Assembly (NCBI RefSeq): GCF_021730435.1
Contig: NZ_JABWGX010000036.1
Location: 1-37,254 of the forward strand
DNA length: 37,254 bases
Direction of reading: 5' to 3'
Origin: Xanthobacter agilis
Lineage (GTDB): Bacteria > Pseudomonadota > Alphaproteobacteria > Rhizobiales > Xanthobacteraceae
The first letter of the stretch is position 1; the number at the start of each line of letters is the position of its first letter. This document shows, in pieces, positions 12,090 through 24,247 of this stretch. The position numbers and the translations under genes are program-made. A model generated the notes under the pieces. It worked only from the letters and a program-made list of their open reading frames with translations. It had not been told where the DNA came from and made no database searches.

Positions 12090-12215
12090 AATGCAACAAT
12101 TATGTATTTTTCATGTTTACGTATTTTTATACAGTATGAATGAATTATATATATTTGTAATAGACTATATATATAATATATATGAATTAAATTATAAATA
12201 AATTATTGATGCCAC
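12090..12215. other. AT-rich island
   Basis: About 125 bp are composed largely of A and T in a genome that elsewhere is near two thirds G+C, including alternating TA runs around 12145-12182. It is placed upstream of the promoter of the glucosylglycerol-type operon. Possible roles are an UP-element-like or curved region, a binding site for a xenogeneic silencer such as MucR/Ros, or a remnant of inserted DNA. Confidence 0.8.
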
Positions 12216-12266
12216 CATTATGCCGAAAAATGGACACGCAAGCATCCACATCAGATATGTGGAAAT

Positions 12267-12296
12267 TTGACACCTCTGACATATTGCGGATAGGAT
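12267..12296 (+). promoter_or_regulatory. Putative sigma70-type promoter of gpsA-HAD-ggpS
   Basis: A consensus TTGACA (12267-12272) is followed after 18 bp by TAGGAT (12291-12296), directly downstream of the AT-rich island and about 115 bp before the gpsA start. The -35 also begins a direct repeat, TGACA-N4-to-5-TGACA, that could bind a regulator. The placement is good; the -10 matches only four of six consensus bases. Confidence 0.45.
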
Positions 12297-12412
12297 ACAG
12301 TAAGTGATCGATTGAGGAATGGGCTTTTTCGGAAGCCTTACCGGGCAATTCTTGCCCCGTCGCCACCCGCTTCATGCGGCGCGCGGCACGCCCTTGCAAC
12401 ACAGGGGGTCCC

Positions 12413-13573
12413 ATGACCGACTTCAAAACGCTGCTCCAACAACGGCGGTTGTCCGCTACCCATCCGCAGACCAGCGTACCTAGACCCTACGAAACCCTCG
12501 CGGTCCTCGGCGGTGGCGCCTGGGGCACCGCTCTCGCCATCGTCGCCGCCCGCGCCGGATGCCAGGTGCGCCTGTGGCTCCGCGATTCCGCCCGCGCCGC
12601 CGAAATCGCCCGCACCCGGCGCAACACCGCGCGCCTGGGCGACATTCCCATTCCCCCCGGCGTGATCCCCACCGCCGACTTCGCTGCGGCCCTCGACGGC
12701 GCTGCGGCGGCGTTGCTCGTCACGCCCTCGGCAACCGTCCGCGAGATGGCGCGGCGCATCGCCGCCCACCCGGCGCCGCACATGCCGCTGTTCGTGAGCG
12801 CCAAGGGCATCGAGGCCGGCACCGGCCTCATGATGTCGGCCGTGGCGGAAGAGGAGGCGCCGGGCCGCGTCATCGGCGTGATCTCAGGCCCCACCTTCGC
12901 CCTTGAGACGGCAGCCGGGCACCCCACCGCCGCGACCATCGCCTGCACCGCCGGCGCCGATGTACCACCGTATCTGCGGCCCGGCGCCCGCATGGCGGCG
13001 AGCCTCACCTGCGACAGCTTCCGCCCCTATGTCTCGGACGACATGGCGGGGGTCGAGGTGGGCGGCGCGGTGAAGAATGTCATCGCTATCGCCTGCGGCA
13101 TGCTGGCCGGGGCGGGCTTCGGCGAGAATACGCGGGCCGCCCTCATCACCCGCGGGCTCGACGAGATGAAGGAGCTGGCGGTGTGTCTCGGCGGCCGGCG
13201 CGAAACGGTGACGGGCCTTTCGGGCATGGGCGACCTGATGCTCACCTGCTCCAGCCCCCAATCGCGCAACTTCCGCTACGGCTTCGCCCGCGGCGCGGGC
13301 CGCTCCGACGCCGACGCGTTCGACGGCGCCCCGGTGCTGGTGGAGGGGCGACACAATGCGGTGACGGTCACGGACCTTGCCCGCCGGCTCCACCTCCACA
13401 TGCCCATTTGCGAGATGGTGCGCGCCGTGGTGGCGGACGGCCGCCCCATCGGCGAAGCGTTCGCCGGCTTCTGGGCGGCGCCGATCCAGGCCGAGCCGCG
13501 CGCCCTCGACCTCGCCTTCCCCCACCCGGCCGAAGCGGAAGTGACGCGCCGGTTCGAGGCCTTGTTGCCGTGA
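12413..13573 (+). CDS. gpsA: NAD(P)-dependent glycerol-3-phosphate dehydrogenase
   Basis: A 386-aa GpsA-family protein that reduces dihydroxyacetone phosphate to sn-glycerol 3-phosphate. The Rossmann motif GGGAWGTA lies at 33-40, SAKGIE carries Lys131, SGPTFA follows, and the catalytic lysine is Lys221 in GGAVKNVIAIACG. TGLSGMGDLMLTC sits in the C-terminal domain. An N-terminal extension of about 25 residues precedes the usual start of the family. The ATG at 12413 follows AGGGGGT. It is the first gene of a three-gene unit: its TGA overlaps the GTG of the HAD gene by 4 bp. The context suggests that this copy feeds glycerol 3-phosphate to the glycosyltransferase two genes downstream rather than serving bulk phospholipid synthesis. 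Confidence 0.9.
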   Translation: MTDFKTLLQQRRLSATHPQTSVPRPYETLAVLGGGAWGTALAIVAARAGCQVRLWLRDSARAAEIARTRRNTARLGDIPIPPGVIPTADFAAALDGAAAALLVTPSATVREMARRIAAHPAPHMPLFVSAKGIEAGTGLMMSAVAEEEAPGRVIGVISGPTFALETAAGHPTAATIACTAGADVPPYLRPGARMAASLTCDSFRPYVSDDMAGVEVGGAVKNVIAIACGMLAGAGFGENTRAALITRGLDEMKELAVCLGGRRETVTGLSGMGDLMLTCSSPQSRNFRYGFARGAGRSDADAFDGAPVLVEGRHNAVTVTDLARRLHLHMPICEMVRAVVADGRPIGEAFAGFWAAPIQAEPRALDLAFPHPAEAEVTRRFEALLP

Positions 13574-14376
13574 GCGGTGGGCCGGACGCGGCCGCGGCGC
13601 GGTGGCGCCTCGTGCTCGCCACCGACCTCGACGGCACCTTCCTTGGCGGGACGCCGGGCGCGCGCGCGGCGCTCTACGGCTGGATCCGCCGGCACCGGGA
13701 CAGCGTGGGCCTCATCTTCGTCACCGGCCGCGACCCGGACTTCATCCACGCTTTGTGCGCCGGAACCGGAGCGGAGGCCTGCGGGGTGCCCGTTCCCGAC
13801 TATGTGGTGGCGGATGTGGGCACCACCGTGGCGCGGGTCGAGCGGCGGGACGGGGCGCCGGCCCTGTCTCTGCTGCGGGAGCTGGAGGCCCCCATCGCCG
13901 CCGCCTGGGGCGATCGCTCCGCCTTCGTGCGCGAGACGCTGGCCGGCGCGCCGGGCCTTGTTCCACAGGACACCCCATTCCGCCACCGCGTGTCCTACCA
14001 TTACGATCCCTTGCGCTACGATCCGGCGGCCACCGCGCCGCTCGCCGACGCGGGCCTCGACATTCTCATTTCGGCCGATCGCTTCCTCGATGTGCTGCCG
14101 GGCGGGGCGAACAAGGGCTCGACCCTGCTGGCCCTGCTGGAACACCTGGGGCTCGCTCGCGACCGGGTGCTGGTGGCCGGCGACACCCTGAATGACCTTT
14201 CCATGTTCCGGACCGGTCTTTTCGGCGCGGTGGTGGGCGGGGCTGAAGCCGCCCTGAGAGACGCCACGCGGGCCCTGCCCCACACCCTGCACTGCCGCGC
14301 GCCGGGCGCGGGCGGCATCATGGAGGCCATCGCGGCCTTCGGACTTCATCCCGCGCCACCGGAGGCAAGCCAATGA
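13570..14376 (+). CDS. HAD-IIB phosphatase, probable glucosylglycerol-phosphate phosphatase
   Basis: A 268-aa HAD-superfamily hydrolase of the sucrose-phosphatase-like IIB type. Motif I is ATDLDGTF with nucleophile Asp19 and acid Asp21, motif II is FVTGRD, the motif III lysine is in GANKGSTL, and motif IV is GDTLND with Asp205. Its GTG start overlaps the gpsA stop, and its TGA overlaps the ggpS ATG. By position it should remove the phosphate from the product of the glycosyltransferase. It appears closer to S6PP-type HADs than to the cyanobacterial GgpP family, so the assignment rests on context plus fold. A trehalose-6-phosphate phosphatase role is the alternative. Confidence 0.75.
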   Translation: MSGGPDAAAARWRLVLATDLDGTFLGGTPGARAALYGWIRRHRDSVGLIFVTGRDPDFIHALCAGTGAEACGVPVPDYVVADVGTTVARVERRDGAPALSLLRELEAPIAAAWGDRSAFVRETLAGAPGLVPQDTPFRHRVSYHYDPLRYDPAATAPLADAGLDILISADRFLDVLPGGANKGSTLLALLEHLGLARDRVLVAGDTLNDLSMFRTGLFGAVVGGAEAALRDATRALPHTLHCRAPGAGGIMEAIAAFGLHPAPPEASQ

Positions 14377-15884
14377 AATCGGACCTCGTCATCGTCTATC
14401 ACCGGGCCCCCTACGAGGAGGTGATGGAGGATGGCGTGATCGTGCTTCGGGAACACAAGAGCCCCAACGGCATCGTGCCCACCTTGAAGGCCCTCATCGG
14501 CCGCATCGAGCGCGCCGCCTGGGTCGCCTGGAAGGAGGCCGAAGACCCGGCCCACCCCGATTTCGAGCGGGTCGTGGACATCTCCGACAGCTTCGGCACC
14601 TATGCCGTCAGCCGGCTGCCGCTGACGGCCGAGCAGGTGCGCAGCTTCTATCACGTGACATCCAAGGAAGCCTTCTGGCCCATCCTCCACGGCTTCAAGG
14701 AGCGCTACAATTACGATCCGGTGGACTGGCCCACGTTTCGCGCCGTGAACTGGGCGTTCGCGGAAGCGGCGGCGGAAGAGGCCAGCGACGATGCCGTGGT
14801 GTGGGTGCACGATTACAATCTGTGGCTCGTGCCCGGCTATCTGCGGCAGCTCAAGCCCTCGGTGAGGATCGCTTTCTTCCACCACACCCCGTTCCCCGCG
14901 CCTGACATGTTCAACGTGCTGCCCTGGCGCCGGGAGATCGTGGACAGCCTGCTGGCCTGTGACGCCGTCGGCTTCCATGTGCCGCGCTATGCGCAGAATT
15001 TCATGGCGGTCGCCCATTCCCTGGCCGGCGCCCACGCGCTTCAGGATGCGGAGACCGATCCACGCCTGGCCAGCGCGGGCACCGCGCTCAACGAGATGTT
15101 CACCCCGCTCGCCCTCGCCGTGGACGGGCGCACGGTCCGCATCGACACCAATCCGGTGGGCGTGAACTTCAGCTACATCGAGGACCTGGCCGCCGCCCCG
15201 GCGGTCGCGGAAAAGGTCGAGGCGATCCGCGCCGGGCTGGATGGGGCGAAGCTCGTGCTCTCGGTATCGCGCACCGATTACACCAAGGGCAATGTCCAGC
15301 AGCTCGAAGCCTTCGAGCGCCTGTTGAAGCGGCGGCCGGACCTGCTCGGACAGGTCCGGTTCATGCTGGTGTCGGTGGGCGCCAACCGGGGCATGAGCAT
15401 CTATGAGGATGTGCAGCAGCGCATCGAGGAACTGACCGGCCGCATCAACGGGACCTTCGGCAGTTTCGAATGGCAGCCCGTTTCCCTCATCTCCACCGCC
15501 ATCCCGCTGCCGGAACTGGTCGCGTACTACCGCGCCGCCCATGTCGCCGCCATCACCCCCCTCGCCGACGGGCTCAATCTGGTGGCAAGCGAGTTCTGCG
15601 CCGCCCAGGGCGAGGACGGCGCGGGCGTGCTGATCCTGTCCGAGTTCGCCGGCGCGTCGGTGCTGCTGGAGGGGGCGATCCCGGTGAACCCCTTCTCCAA
15701 TGCCCATATGGACAACGCCCTGGAACAGGCGCTGGCCATGCCCGCGGCGGAGGCCCATGGCCGCATGGCGCTGCTGCGCGCCTCCGCCCGCCGCTTCACC
15801 CTCCAGAGCTGGGCGGACGCCACCTTGGACGGGTTCGCGGCGTTGAAGGCGTCCCCGGTGGCGGCCACCGCCCCCGCCGCTTGA
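14373..15884 (+). CDS. ggpS: Glucosylglycerol-phosphate synthase (GT20 family)
   Basis: A 503-aa retaining glycosyltransferase of family GT20. The N-terminus, LVIVYHRAPYEEV followed by SPNGIVPTLKAL, matches the cyanobacterial GgpS pattern rather than trehalose synthase OtsA, which has VSNR and GGLAVG-type motifs there. LTAEQVRSFYHVTSKEAFWPILH is also GgpS-like. Shared GT20 features are WVHDYNLWLVP (Asp147), FFHHTPFP, the donor-phosphate-binding SVSRTDYTKG with Arg300 and Lys305, and TPLADGLNLVASE. The expected reaction is nucleoside-diphosphoglucose plus glycerol 3-phosphate to glucosylglycerol phosphate. The ATG overlaps the phosphatase stop (ATGA) and is preceded by GGAGG. The co-encoded gpsA supports glycerol 3-phosphate as acceptor. 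OtsA activity remains the alternative. Confidence 0.82.
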   Translation: MKSDLVIVYHRAPYEEVMEDGVIVLREHKSPNGIVPTLKALIGRIERAAWVAWKEAEDPAHPDFERVVDISDSFGTYAVSRLPLTAEQVRSFYHVTSKEAFWPILHGFKERYNYDPVDWPTFRAVNWAFAEAAAEEASDDAVVWVHDYNLWLVPGYLRQLKPSVRIAFFHHTPFPAPDMFNVLPWRREIVDSLLACDAVGFHVPRYAQNFMAVAHSLAGAHALQDAETDPRLASAGTALNEMFTPLALAVDGRTVRIDTNPVGVNFSYIEDLAAAPAVAEKVEAIRAGLDGAKLVLSVSRTDYTKGNVQQLEAFERLLKRRPDLLGQVRFMLVSVGANRGMSIYEDVQQRIEELTGRINGTFGSFEWQPVSLISTAIPLPELVAYYRAAHVAAITPLADGLNLVASEFCAAQGEDGAGVLILSEFAGASVLLEGAIPVNPFSNAHMDNALEQALAMPAAEAHGRMALLRASARRFTLQSWADATLDGFAALKASPVAATAPAA

Positions 15885-15956: not shown

Positions 15957-16310
15957 GTCTCCGTAGCTCAGCAGGATAGAGCACAGGTTTCCTAAAATTG
16001 GGCACCCGTGGCGGAAACGCCCGGTGTGAATCCGCTCAAAGTCGGGGAAAGCTTCGGCCCGCAGCTTCGGCTTGCGGCCATGCCAATCCCGAGCCAAGCC
16101 TTCCGGCCCATGCATCCGCAGGTCCGCGAAGGAAGGTGTAGAGACTAGACGGGCGGCGCCTAAAGCCTTTCGGGAAAACCCGGCGGGCCACGGCGAAGGG
16201 ATAGTCCAGACCACGAACGCCGGCCGCCTTCGGGCGCGCAGCCGGCGGCGGCGAAAGCCGAGGTGGGATGAAACCTGGGGTCGCGTGTTCGAGTCACGCC
16301 GGGGACACCA
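15957..16310 (+). tRNA. tRNA-Arg(CCU), interrupted by a group I intron
   Basis: The 5' exon is 15957-15993: acceptor strand GTCTCCG, D-stem GCTC/GAGC, anticodon stem CAGGT and loop TTCCT. The 3' exon is 16271-16310: AA, stem ACCTG, variable loop GGGTC, T-arm GCGTG-TTCGAGT-CACGC, acceptor CGGGGAC, discriminator A and an encoded CCA. Spliced, they give a 77-nt tRNA with a 7-nt anticodon loop TTCCTAA and anticodon CCU. The acceptor pairs throughout with one G-U wobble. The intron lies directly after the anticodon. Confidence 0.93.
15994..16270 (+). ncRNA. Group I self-splicing intron (Azoarcus-like, probably IC3) in tRNA-Arg(CCU)
   Basis: A 277-nt insertion begins after the last anticodon base, a U, and ends in G, as group I introns require. 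The core closely follows the well-studied Azoarcus tRNA-Ile intron: GAGCCAAGCC near 16091-16100 (P4 region), AAGGTGTAGAGACTAGACGG at 16133-16152, and GAAGGGATAGTCCAGA near 16195. P7 forms from GACTA (16143-16147) and TAGTC (16202-16206). There is no room for a homing endonuclease. Introns at this tRNA-Arg site are known in some alphaproteobacteria, so the position is expected and splicing should be protein-independent. Confidence 0.92.
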
Positions 16311-16385: not shown

Positions 16386-16490
16386 AGAGCATTTCCGGTG
16401 AACTCCCGCTCACCCGGAATGCTCTAAGTCTTTGTTTTGTCGCAATTCCAGGCGCAAAACCGCTGAACGCTTTTGCTGGAATTGCTCTAG
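16386..16490. repeat. Hyphomicrobiales-type interspersed double-hairpin element
   Basis: Two adjacent imperfect palindromes are present. The first runs AGAGCATTTCCGG to CCGGAATGCTCT (16386-16425). The second pairs GCAATTCCA (16442-16450) with TGGAATTGC (16477-16485), with an inner GCAAAA/TTTTGC stem. They are joined by AAGTCTTTGTTTTGTC, and the element ends with GCTCTAG. I recognise this as a non-coding repeat found in many intergenic regions of Hyphomicrobiales genomes. It is non-autonomous and of unknown function; similar elements may act in mRNA 3' ends or as MITE-like units. Confidence 0.75.
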
Positions 16491-16743
16491 GTGCCCCGCG
16501 CCGGGGTACCCGCGCAGAGCCATCGGCCAAGAATGGACGGGACCGGGACGGCATCTTCCCCACCGGCACCGCACCCGCCCCACGTCCAACAACACCGTGG
16601 GGTCTTTCCCCTCTGCATCATCAGGCGCACCGCGCCCGCAGATCATCACGGCGACCATCCGTTGCTCCATCCGGCCGCCTCCCGCGCACCATCAAGATTG
16701 CGGCAAGGTTGCTTCCGGCCCCGCGCCGGCGGCACATTGGCCC

Positions 16744-16808
16744 GCCGGTCCTTTGGGCGCGCCGGTCTTTTGGCCCGCCGGTTCTCTTGGCATCGGTCCT
16801 TTTGGCGC
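16744..16808. repeat. Imperfect tandem repeat, four 16-17-bp units
   Basis: Four units follow the pattern GCCGGTC(C/T)TTTGG(G/C)C(G/C)C: 16744-16760, 16761-16776, 16777-16792 and 16793-16808. They lie 60-125 bp upstream of the beta-lactamase start, where they could affect its promoter or leader RNA. Confidence 0.75.
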
Positions 16809-16869
16809 CGTTTTCTCCCCCTATCGGCCGGCCCACCCGGTTCAGCGGGGTCCTGCGGATGGAGACACC

Positions 16870-17733
16870 GTGCTTCTCACCCGACGCCAGATTCTCGCCG
16901 GCGGCGCGCTCCTTGCGGCCACGGGACCGTCACAGGCGCGGACCGACGATATGACGCGGCAGCTCGCCGCGATCGAGGCGCGCACCGGCGGGCGGCTCGG
17001 GGTGGCGCTCCATGACACCGGCACCGGCCGCCGCCTAACCTACCGCGCCGACGCGCGCTTTCCCCTCAACAGCACCTTCAAGGCCTTCGCCTGCGCCGCG
17101 GTGCTGGCCCAGGTGGATGCCGGCCGCGCCAGCCTCGATACCCTCGTGCCGTTCACGCCCGCCGACCTTGTTCCCTATTCGCCCGTGACCGAAAAGCATG
17201 TGGGGACTGGCATGAACCTTGGCGCCCTGTGCGCGGCGGCCACCGCCGTGAGCGACAATACCGCCGCCAACCTGATCCTGGCGCAGATCGGCGGTCCCGA
17301 GGGCCTCACCCGCTTTCTGCGCCGCATCGGCGACGACACCACCCGGCTGGATCGCTGGGAGCCGGAGCTGAACACGGCCACCCCCGGCGATCCCCGCGAC
17401 ACCACCACCCCCGCGGCCGCCGCCCGCAGTCTCGAAGCGCTGGTGCTGGGCGACCACCTCTCCGCCGCCTCCCGGACCCAGCTCACCGCCTGGCTGATGG
17501 CGGACGCCGTCGCCGGCCCGCTGCTGCGCGCCGCCGTGCCAGCCGGCTGGCGCATCGCCGACCGCACCGGCGCCGGCGGCCACGGCTCGCGCGGCATCAT
17601 CGCCGTTGCATGGCCACCGGACGGCGCGTCGATCGTGGTCGCTATTTACCTCACTCAGACCGACCTGTCCCTCGACGCCCGCAATGGCGCGATCGCCGAG
17701 GTCGGCCGGCTGCTGGTGGCCGACCGGCGCTGA
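16870..17733 (+). CDS. Class A beta-lactamase, Tat-type signal
   Basis: A 287-aa serine beta-lactamase. All class A landmarks are present: STFK with nucleophile Ser68 (Ambler 70), SDN at 128-130, omega-loop WEPELN with Glu164 (Ambler 166), and a final-strand triad RTG at 232-234. The triad has Arg in place of the usual Lys234, as in carbenicillin-hydrolysing (CARB/PSE) and some environmental enzymes. The N-terminus TRRQILAGGALLAA is a likely twin-arginine export signal. The start is a GTG after GGAGA; upstream sequence in frame is low-complexity and unlike a signal. No adjacent ampR-like regulator is seen. It probably encodes an intrinsic chromosomal penicillinase of the periplasm. Confidence 0.9.
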   Translation: MLLTRRQILAGGALLAATGPSQARTDDMTRQLAAIEARTGGRLGVALHDTGTGRRLTYRADARFPLNSTFKAFACAAVLAQVDAGRASLDTLVPFTPADLVPYSPVTEKHVGTGMNLGALCAAATAVSDNTAANLILAQIGGPEGLTRFLRRIGDDTTRLDRWEPELNTATPGDPRDTTTPAAAARSLEALVLGDHLSAASRTQLTAWLMADAVAGPLLRAAVPAGWRIADRTGAGGHGSRGIIAVAWPPDGASIVVAIYLTQTDLSLDARNGAIAEVGRLLVADRR

Positions 17734-22905: not shown

Positions 22906-22969
22906 CCGACCGACCCCGGAAAGTCCGTGAGCCACCTTGCGATCTGCGGCCCGGCGTGGATAATGCGCC

Positions 22970-23047
22970 CACGGCCTGGGGTGCCGCGTGCGCACGCGGC
23001 TGAGATCACACCCATCGAACCTGTCTGGATCATACCAGCGTAGGGAG
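22970..23047 (+). promoter_or_regulatory. TPP riboswitch (THI element) in front of thiOSGE
   Basis: The THI-box parts are present in order: GGGGTGCCG, the GCGTG/CACGC stem, GGCTGAGATCACACCC, GAACCTG, and TGGATCATACCAGCGTAGGGA. The last part, TAGGGAG (23041-23047), also serves as the Shine-Dalgarno of thiO. TPP binding should therefore directly mask translation initiation. No separate terminator hairpin with a T-tract is visible, consistent with translational control. Confidence 0.93.
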
Positions 23048-23053
23048 ATGCCG

Positions 23054-24247
23054 ATGAGCGAGAGCTTGTCGTCTGTTTCATCATCGTCTGCCGGCTCCAC
23101 ATCGGCCCCTGGCGCGCGACCGCGCGTCGCCATCGTGGGGGCGGGCGTCATGGGCCTGTCGCTGGGCTGGCGCCTCGCGCGGGCCGGTTGCCCGGTGGAC
23201 ATTTACGAGGCCGGCATCGCCGGCCAGGGCGCCAGCCATGCCGCCGCCGGCATGCTCGCCGCCTGCGCCGAGGCGGAGCCCGGCGAAGAGGACCTGCTCG
23301 CCCTCAACCGCGCGAGCCAGGCCCTGTGGCCGCGGTTCGCCGCCGAGCTGGAGGCCGAATCGGGCACCTGCGTGGACCTGCGGACCGAAGGCACCCTCAC
23401 GATCGGCCTGACCGCCGACGACGGGGCCCGCCTGCGCCATCTGTTCGCGCTTCAGACCGCCCTCGGGCTGCCGGTGGAATGGCTGACGGCCGCCGCCGTC
23501 CGGCGCCTGGAGCCGCACCTCGCGGGCCAGCTTTCCGGCGCCATCCTGAGCGCCGAAGACCACCAGGTGGACAACCGCAAGGTGGTCGCGGCCCTGCTCA
23601 CCGCCATCGCCCGCGCCGGCGCGCGGCTGCATGAGAACAGCCCCGTGGCCAAGGTCGAGACCCAGGCCGGCAAGACCCTCGGCGTGGTGGTCAACGGAGC
23701 GCTGAAGCGCGCCGATCTGGTCATTCTCGCCGCCGGCGCCTGGAGCCGGGGCGTAGACATTTCCCCGGCCGCGCCGCTGCCGGTGCGCCCGGTGAAGGGG
23801 CAAATGCTGGCCCTGCGGATGGATCCGGCGGCCCCGCTCGTGAACCATGTCATCTGGGCGCCGAATTCCTACATCGTGCCGCGCCGCAACGGCCGCCTCA
23901 TCCTCGGCGCCACCACCGAGGAGAAGGGCTTCGACACCGCCCTCACCGCCGGCGGCCAGCTCGCCTTGCTCACTTATGCGTGGCGGGCGCTGCCGGCGCT
24001 GGAGGAACTGCCCATCCTCGAGCAATGGGTGGGCTTTCGCCCCGGCAGCCGTGACGACGCCCCGATCCTTGGTCCGAGCGCGGAGGTCGAGGGGCTCGTC
24101 TATGCCACCGGCCACCACCGCAACGGCATCCTGCTGCTGGCGGTGACGGCGAAGGTGATCGCCGAATGCGTGCTCGAAGGGCGGCTGGAAAAGGTGGCCG
24201 AGCCCTTCCGCGCCAGCCGTTTCACGCCGCGCGCGGCGGCGGAGTAG
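23054..24247 (+). CDS. thiO: Glycine oxidase ThiO
   Basis: A 397-aa FAD-dependent amino-acid oxidase of the DAO fold. It has the dinucleotide motif VAIVGAGVMGLSLGW about 30 residues from the start, QGASHAAAGMLAACAE, and the C-terminal WVGFRPGSRDDAPILGP and ATGHHRNGILLLAVTA segments typical of ThiO. The enzyme oxidises glycine to the iminoacetate used in thiazole formation. A Ser-rich N-terminal extension of about 20 residues is unusual. The ATG at 23054 is preferred over 23048 because of its spacing from TAGGGAG, which is part of the TPP riboswitch. It is the first gene of thiOSGE. Confidence 0.93.
   Translation: MSESLSSVSSSSAGSTSAPGARPRVAIVGAGVMGLSLGWRLARAGCPVDIYEAGIAGQGASHAAAGMLAACAEAEPGEEDLLALNRASQALWPRFAAELEAESGTCVDLRTEGTLTIGLTADDGARLRHLFALQTALGLPVEWLTAAAVRRLEPHLAGQLSGAILSAEDHQVDNRKVVAALLTAIARAGARLHENSPVAKVETQAGKTLGVVVNGALKRADLVILAAGAWSRGVDISPAAPLPVRPVKGQMLALRMDPAAPLVNHVIWAPNSYIVPRRNGRLILGATTEEKGFDTALTAGGQLALLTYAWRALPALEELPILEQWVGFRPGSRDDAPILGPSAEVEGLVYATGHHRNGILLLAVTAKVIAECVLEGRLEKVAEPFRASRFTPRAAAE

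Follow-up and report, generated by a model that had tools for sequence, protein, structure and literature searches.

The synthesis of glucosylglycerol (GG), a commercially interesting compatible solute, is described in the literature for cyanobacteria and, in the form of a fused enzyme, for a few heterotrophs. In the Synechocystis ggpS/ggpP pathway, the synthase GgpS requires ADP-glucose, and UDP-glucose is not used (PMC6004087). The fused enzyme, with the phosphatase at its N-terminus and the synthase at its C-terminus, is called GgpPS and combines these two functions in Stenotrophomonas rhizophila, Pseudomonas mendocina, Azotobacter vinelandii, and Marinobacter adhaerens (PMC10873239). A 2019 review mentions gpsA in the legend of a figure on the co-localization of ggpS in cyanobacteria (PMC6753628), so the idea of linking the supply of glycerol 3-phosphate to ggpS already existed; the text of PMC10873239 does not contain the word gpsA. 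Here, a stretch of 37,254 nucleotides from Xanthobacter agilis (contig NZ_JABWGX010000036.1; the whole of it is called the window) is considered, in which three adjacent genes, gpsA, a HAD phosphatase gene, and ggpS, very probably form an operon for GG synthesis, as judged from their sequences. The pathway itself is known; what is new is a variant of it in a genome in which no GlgC (ADP-glucose pyrophosphorylase) was found. The open PMC literature, among the matches listed, yielded no paper describing a gpsA-HAD-ggpS operon from Alphaproteobacteria.

The trio spans positions 12413-15884 of the window, all on the plus strand and with 4-base overlaps between neighbours; the GTGA and ATGA junctions that the initial annotation had reported are present in the sequence. 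The features are given below.

12413..13573, plus strand: gpsA, NAD(P)H-dependent glycerol-3-phosphate dehydrogenase (P0001), presumably providing glycerol 3-phosphate (Pfam, NCBIfam, motifs)
13570..13573, plus strand: GTGA overlap of the gpsA stop and the HAD start (sequence)
13570..14376, plus strand: HAD-IIB phosphatase of the S6PP family (P0003), GTG start, probable glucosylglycerol-phosphate phosphatase
14373..14376, plus strand: ATGA overlap of the HAD stop and the ggpS start (sequence)
14373..15884, plus strand: ggpS, putative GT20 glucosylglycerol-phosphate synthase (P0002; TIGR02398, acceptor residues, tree, and, for the fold, an AlphaFold model)
12101..12412, plus strand: upstream region with an A+T-rich block, presumed promoter region (base composition, alignment with Xanthobacter sp. 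NM-59)

The start of gpsA was placed at the ATG at 12413; an in-frame ATG is also present at 12374, but the alignment with the NM-59 counterpart begins at the residue encoded by 12413. Just 5' of the operon, the A+T-rich block (12101-12200) has 13 % GC, against roughly 60-75 % in its surroundings. The NM-59 counterpart is also A+T-rich (0.39 GC over L002:2650-2812), and the about 200 bases 5' of gpsA (12212-12412) can be aligned between the two strains. Purifying selection seems to act on all three genes, the ratio of nonsynonymous to synonymous substitution rates (dN/dS) against NM-59 being 0.16 for gpsA, 0.23 for the HAD gene, and 0.14 for ggpS. Gene order, overlaps, and enzyme families were read directly from the DNA, and the reactions were deduced from family membership and active-site residues. 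GpsA would convert dihydroxyacetone phosphate into glycerol 3-phosphate, onto which GgpS would transfer glucose from a nucleotide sugar to give GG-phosphate; the HAD phosphatase would then release GG, the compatible solute.

P0002 scored 617 bits against TIGR02398, the NCBIfam equivalog for glucosylglycerol-phosphate synthase (cut-off 569), while it reached 384 bits with the OtsA model TIGR02400 (cut-off 565) and stayed below the cut-off of each OtsA model that it matched. The cyanobacterial GgpS of Synechocystis is covered by this family model as well. The three GgpS-like motifs quoted in the initial annotation were located at residues 9-17, 30-39, and 96-105. In an AlphaFold model (mean predicted local distance difference test score (pLDDT) 85.9, predicted template modelling score (pTM) 0.86), P0002 adopts the OtsA fold, mycobacterial OtsA being the top-ranked match; the model speaks to the fold of P0002, not to its substrate. 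P0002 is 33-34 % identical to the OtsA chains of M. thermoresistibile, and not one of the 23 distinct PDB sequences that match it is named GgpS. With OtsA it has the GT-B-type fold and the donor-phosphate residues in common; it differs from OtsA in its acceptor residues and in the family model that recognizes it.

The roles of these residues were taken from a paper on mycobacterial OtsA (PMC6879718) and were transferred by hand through the P0002 alignment to 99 rows of unfused GgpS, 5 fused rows, 29 rows of OtsA-like proteins from the window's family, and E. coli OtsA. The donor-phosphate positions R300, K305, D399, and E407 are invariant in all aligned rows. At the acceptor position N149, an asparagine is present in 99/99 unfused and 5/5 fused rows and a histidine in 29/29 OtsA-like rows and E. 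coli OtsA; at N338, the unfused proteins have N or A (99/99) and the fused ones A or S (5/5), where all 29 OtsA-like rows and the E. coli enzyme carry an arginine. The acceptor site thus appears remodelled away from glucose 6-phosphate. At position 377 in the base pocket, 96 of the 99 GgpS rows have I or V, the fused proteins have L, F, V, L, and L, and 27 of the 29 OtsA-like rows have Y, F, or H. The determinants described for an ADP-glucose-preferring mycobacterial enzyme are V363, E367, and L319 (PMC6879718); two of these three have a like residue in P0002 (I377 and E381, respectively), and L319 corresponds to an unlike residue, V333. Across the GgpS rows, the E381 position is E in 30, Q in 28, and D in 27, and the V333 position is V in 90. 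The base pocket of P0002 may therefore partly resemble the ADP-glucose type.

A tree of 76 rows (63 GgpS and 13 OtsA), made with a quick method and under a warning of the tool that long branches meet on the OtsA side, split the OtsA rows from the GgpS rows with a Shimodaira-Hasegawa-like approximate likelihood ratio test (SH-aLRT) support of 99. P0002 fell outside the OtsA clade, and the five fused proteins grouped together (SH-aLRT 97). Going by its sequence, the GT20 enzyme is of the GgpS type and not an OtsA; family model, acceptor residues, and tree all side with the initial annotation on this point, for which a GT20 phylogeny had been proposed as a check.

The second enzyme, P0003, matched Pfam S6PP with 137 bits; among solved structures, sucrose-phosphatase 1s2o is the closest to it in sequence. 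It failed both sucrose-phosphatase equivalogs, TIGR01485 (59.7 bits, cut-off 183.65) and TIGR02471 (62.9 bits, cut-off 209.75). HAD motifs are located at 19, 52, 181, and 204. The Synechocystis pathway has a separate ggpP, whereas P0003 matched no family named for GG-phosphate phosphatase in the NCBIfam scan. In-frame fusions of HAD and GT20 were found in five of six non-alphaproteobacterial genomes (L180-L184), the distances between the two matches being 750, 756, 762, 744, and 750 bases, respectively. P0003 is 39-46 % identical to the N-domains of these five proteins, which belong to other proteobacteria, along the whole domain, and its residues D19, D21, K182, and D209 are invariant in 15 rows, three of which are fused. 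Because of this match, P0003 looks like the known heterotroph-type GgpPS phosphatase in an unfused form, the comparison having been made with L180-L184 and not with the named GgpPS proteins; GgpPS is one protein, whereas the window has two genes overlapping by 4 bases. An S6PP-like HAD enzyme had been proposed to replace cyanobacterial GgpP. The family assignment stands, and the newly recruited replacement gives way to an unfused counterpart of the fused N-domain.

Among the same six genomes, the sixth relative (L188) is unfused, and its HAD match is spread over two frames. The fused relative L184 has an in-frame TGA inside its GT20 match. Two other candidates for a fused HAD-GgpS, L144 (L162) and L118 (L167), were dropped, since their matches lie in different frames (728 and 725 bases apart).

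Gene order was compared over 88 loci, comprising the best 80 of 467 confirmed relatives among genome contigs and 8 further loci. The HAD gene is directly upstream of ggpS in all 85 loci with enough DNA to judge, an overlap of 4 bases being the most frequent spacing (28 loci). For gpsA, 84 loci were judgeable, and 58 of them, including all 8 further ones, have it upstream. These numbers argue against a chance juxtaposition, and the arrangement is widespread in Alphaproteobacteria, as expected of the alphaproteobacterial pathway variant that had been suggested. P0001 contains PF01210 and PF07479, scored 350 bits against NCBIfam NF000942 (cut-off 257), and carries the motifs GGGAWGT, KGIE, and AVKN. 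The other GpsA of the host genome (at C12), which adjoins a tsaD-like gene recognized by eye, is about 42 % identical to it; the operon gpsA is a second copy, in agreement with the earlier claim that it is dedicated to this pathway. Distances between GpsA proteins and between GgpS proteins correlate with an r of 0.92 (59 sequences), an uncorrected value that also reflects shared species history.

Several points weigh against a GG operon. No gpsA is present in 26 of the 84 judgeable loci, and 21 of these 26 carry a type I glyceraldehyde-3-phosphate dehydrogenase (GAPDH) gene about 500 bases before the HAD gene. The tree was made without a characterized cyanobacterial GgpS, so that membership rests on the family model and the fused relatives. 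In the open PMC literature, among the matches listed, neither an enzyme assay nor a metabolite measurement was found for the clade. Finally, no GlgC was found in the host genome (99.99 % complete), the best TIGR02091 match being 23.7 bits against a cut-off of 424.9, in a search that did not extend to sucrose synthase or other ADP-glucose sources; this result characterizes the host and not the enzyme itself. The exchange of gpsA for GAPDH represents one change on a 67-row tree; the loci concerned are from Roseibaca, Roseinatronobacter, and Rhodobacteraceae (L003, L007-L010, L014-L017, L019, L020, L023-L026, L028-L030, L033-L035).

With no GlgC found, the standard ADP-glucose route is missing, and the operon is not the self-contained unit that it had been taken for, as the usual source of ADP-glucose is neither in the operon nor in the genome. 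None of the six PF00483 proteins of the host is GlgC: RmlA, a ManC-type enzyme (GMP_PMI), GalU (336 bits, cut-off 327), and GlmU each score over a cut-off, and the other two, a heptose nucleotidyltransferase-phosphatase fusion and a MurU-like protein, stay below the equivalog cut-offs. The glucose donor would thus have a different origin or be a different nucleotide sugar: either an ADP-glucose source went unrecognized or, as is possible but rather doubtful, GgpS uses a donor other than ADP-glucose. In the latter case the operon would be the same and the enzyme would take GalU-derived UDP-glucose or a different non-ADP sugar, for example GDP-glucose, an alternative that we regard as tentative. 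It is favoured by the absence of GlgC at E 1e-50 from all 14 genus genomes, host included, and from 11 of the 14 genomes with ggpS over the cut-off (again counting the host) in a class sample of 385 genomes, and by the absence of a glgC relative from all 88 loci (tblastn, E 1e-10). GalU is present in the host, and the operon has a galU relative as its divergent neighbour in 14 of the 78 loci with at least 4 kb upstream. The ManC-type enzyme would fit GDP-glucose, as one ManC-like Streptomyces enzyme makes this sugar (PMC5247666).

Other observations speak against a non-ADP donor: the strictness of Synechocystis GgpS for ADP-glucose over UDP-glucose, the two like residues at mycobacterial ADP-glucose determinants, the comparison of donor-site residues given below, and a GlgC match in 32 of the 38 genomes of close-relative loci (over the cut-off in 29), including some with galU beside the operon. 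The class sample showed no association of GlgC with ggpS either way (3/14 vs 43/371 at E 1e-50; Fisher p 0.23). The galU neighbourhood is scattered, since it requires 9 changes on the 67-row tree, and the one neighbouring galU that was tested against NCBIfam (L055) had galU as its best family with 265 bits, below the cut-off of 327. A shift in the donor site that tracks GlgC was sought in 50 rows with GlgC-searched genomes, leaving out Falsirhodobacter L004, L006, and L036, whose GlgC match is below the cut-off. Position 381 is D or E in 26 of 32 rows with GlgC versus 6 of 18 rows without it, yet the window, which belongs to the latter, keeps E. No donor-site residue tracked GlgC in five independent pairs on supported branches, a comparison of little power, and the idea of such a shift was dropped. 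If an alphaproteobacterial GG branch runs without GlgC, the donor would most simply be GalU-made UDP-glucose, given galU as a recurring divergent neighbour, a proposal put forward with due reserve.

The operon is unlikely to yield some other glucosyl-polyol or glucosyl-acid phosphate from an acceptor different from glycerol 3-phosphate. The loci lacking gpsA would allow it; gpsA next door in 58 of 84 loci, however, points to glycerol 3-phosphate, and both acceptor-site changes are common to the GgpPS-type fused proteins.

As to the origin of the operon, a GgpS-level match was found in 3 of the 14 genus genomes, namely the host, one at 88 % identity, and one at 57 %, the last of which is placed elsewhere in the tree (L144). 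The GgpS proteins of the window and of NM-59 (88 % identical) are nested in a 13-row set that is otherwise Paracoccaceae (SH-aLRT 98), which makes horizontal acquisition likely; the Xanthobacter lineage probably obtained the operon from Rhodobacterales. Plasmid copies are present on pDSHI02 of Dinoroseobacter shibae (NC_009956.1) and on a plasmid of Falsirhodobacter algicola (NZ_CP047290.1), with the same genes in the same order and on the same strand, separated by 4-base overlaps or an 11-base gap, and with GgpS 60-70 % identical to P0002. These copies are plasmid-borne; the one in the window lies on a contig. No relative was found in the viral contigs searched. Four annotated plasmid records (three of them representing one D. 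shibae plasmid) call the gene ggpS, and a fifth record is unannotated. The warning in the initial annotation that the gene is easily misannotated is mostly contradicted by these names and by the NCBIfam model, which names P0002 above its cut-off; it retains a small element of truth in that a table in PMC7002103 puts glucosylglycerol-phosphate synthase beside trehalose genes.

On pDSHI02 (L189:5248-13574), genes for a sensor histidine kinase, an RNA polymerase sigma factor, a NepR-family anti-sigma factor, and a response regulator are located within 5 kb of the operon, a combination typical of general stress response loci. EcfG-type boxes were found in 6 of 58 loci, where single-base shuffles predict 0.58; two of the six are near-identical, no claim is drawn from this, and the window has no exact box.

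That the operon was acquired recently and is idle for want of a donor is quite unlikely: acquisition and the lack of a GlgC match would fit, but the purifying selection on all three genes (dN/dS 0.14-0.23) and the alignable bases upstream of gpsA argue otherwise. A last reading, in which trehalose is the product of the operon and the GT20 enzyme acts as a trehalose-6-phosphate synthase, was rejected as extremely improbable, because the shared fold, the 33-34 % identity to mycobacterial OtsA, and the lack of a second GT20 match (E 1e-3) in the host and its 88 % genus mate, while 11 of 14 genus genomes have an OtsA-looking one (32-36 % identity), are set against scores below the OtsA and above the GgpS cut-offs, a tree position apart from OtsA, acceptor residues replaced in 99/99 rows, and neighbours that are gpsA and an S6PP-family HAD gene instead of otsB. 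One genus genome (88 % complete) has neither a GgpS-level nor an OtsA-like match.

Directly 3' of ggpS is a tRNA-Arg(CCU) gene (15957-16310) interrupted by a group I intron about 277 bases long, which spans 15994-16270 with an uncertainty of 3 bases at its ends. The intron scored 34 bits against Rfam Intron_gpI, short of the gathering score of 50. The four genus mates examined (L157-L160) have an intronless tRNA. As it faces the operon with its 5' end instead of its 3' end, the tRNA gene is not a classical island site. A beta-lactamase-family gene (PF13354) occupies 16432-17733, with the tRNA on one side and a DUF938 gene on the other; NM-59 has a counterpart, and the gene was not found in the compared stretches of the four genus mates. 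Further downstream, a thiamine pyrophosphate (TPP) riboswitch (22967-23065) precedes genes for a DAO-family oxidoreductase and thiG.

In conclusion, the core of the initial annotation, a GG operon with a GgpS instead of an OtsA and with its own gpsA, is upheld, while its accents on self-containment, misannotation, and a replaced phosphatase were wrong or unproven. Because the operon occurs in genomes without ADP-glucose pyrophosphorylase, the question of which donor GgpS accepts can be put to a direct test. If GgpS indeed works without GlgC, GG synthesis would be uncoupled from glycogen metabolism. A compact operon with its own acceptor supply, recurrent in Alphaproteobacteria, sometimes plasmid-borne, and seemingly moved between orders, would constitute a ready-made trait module.

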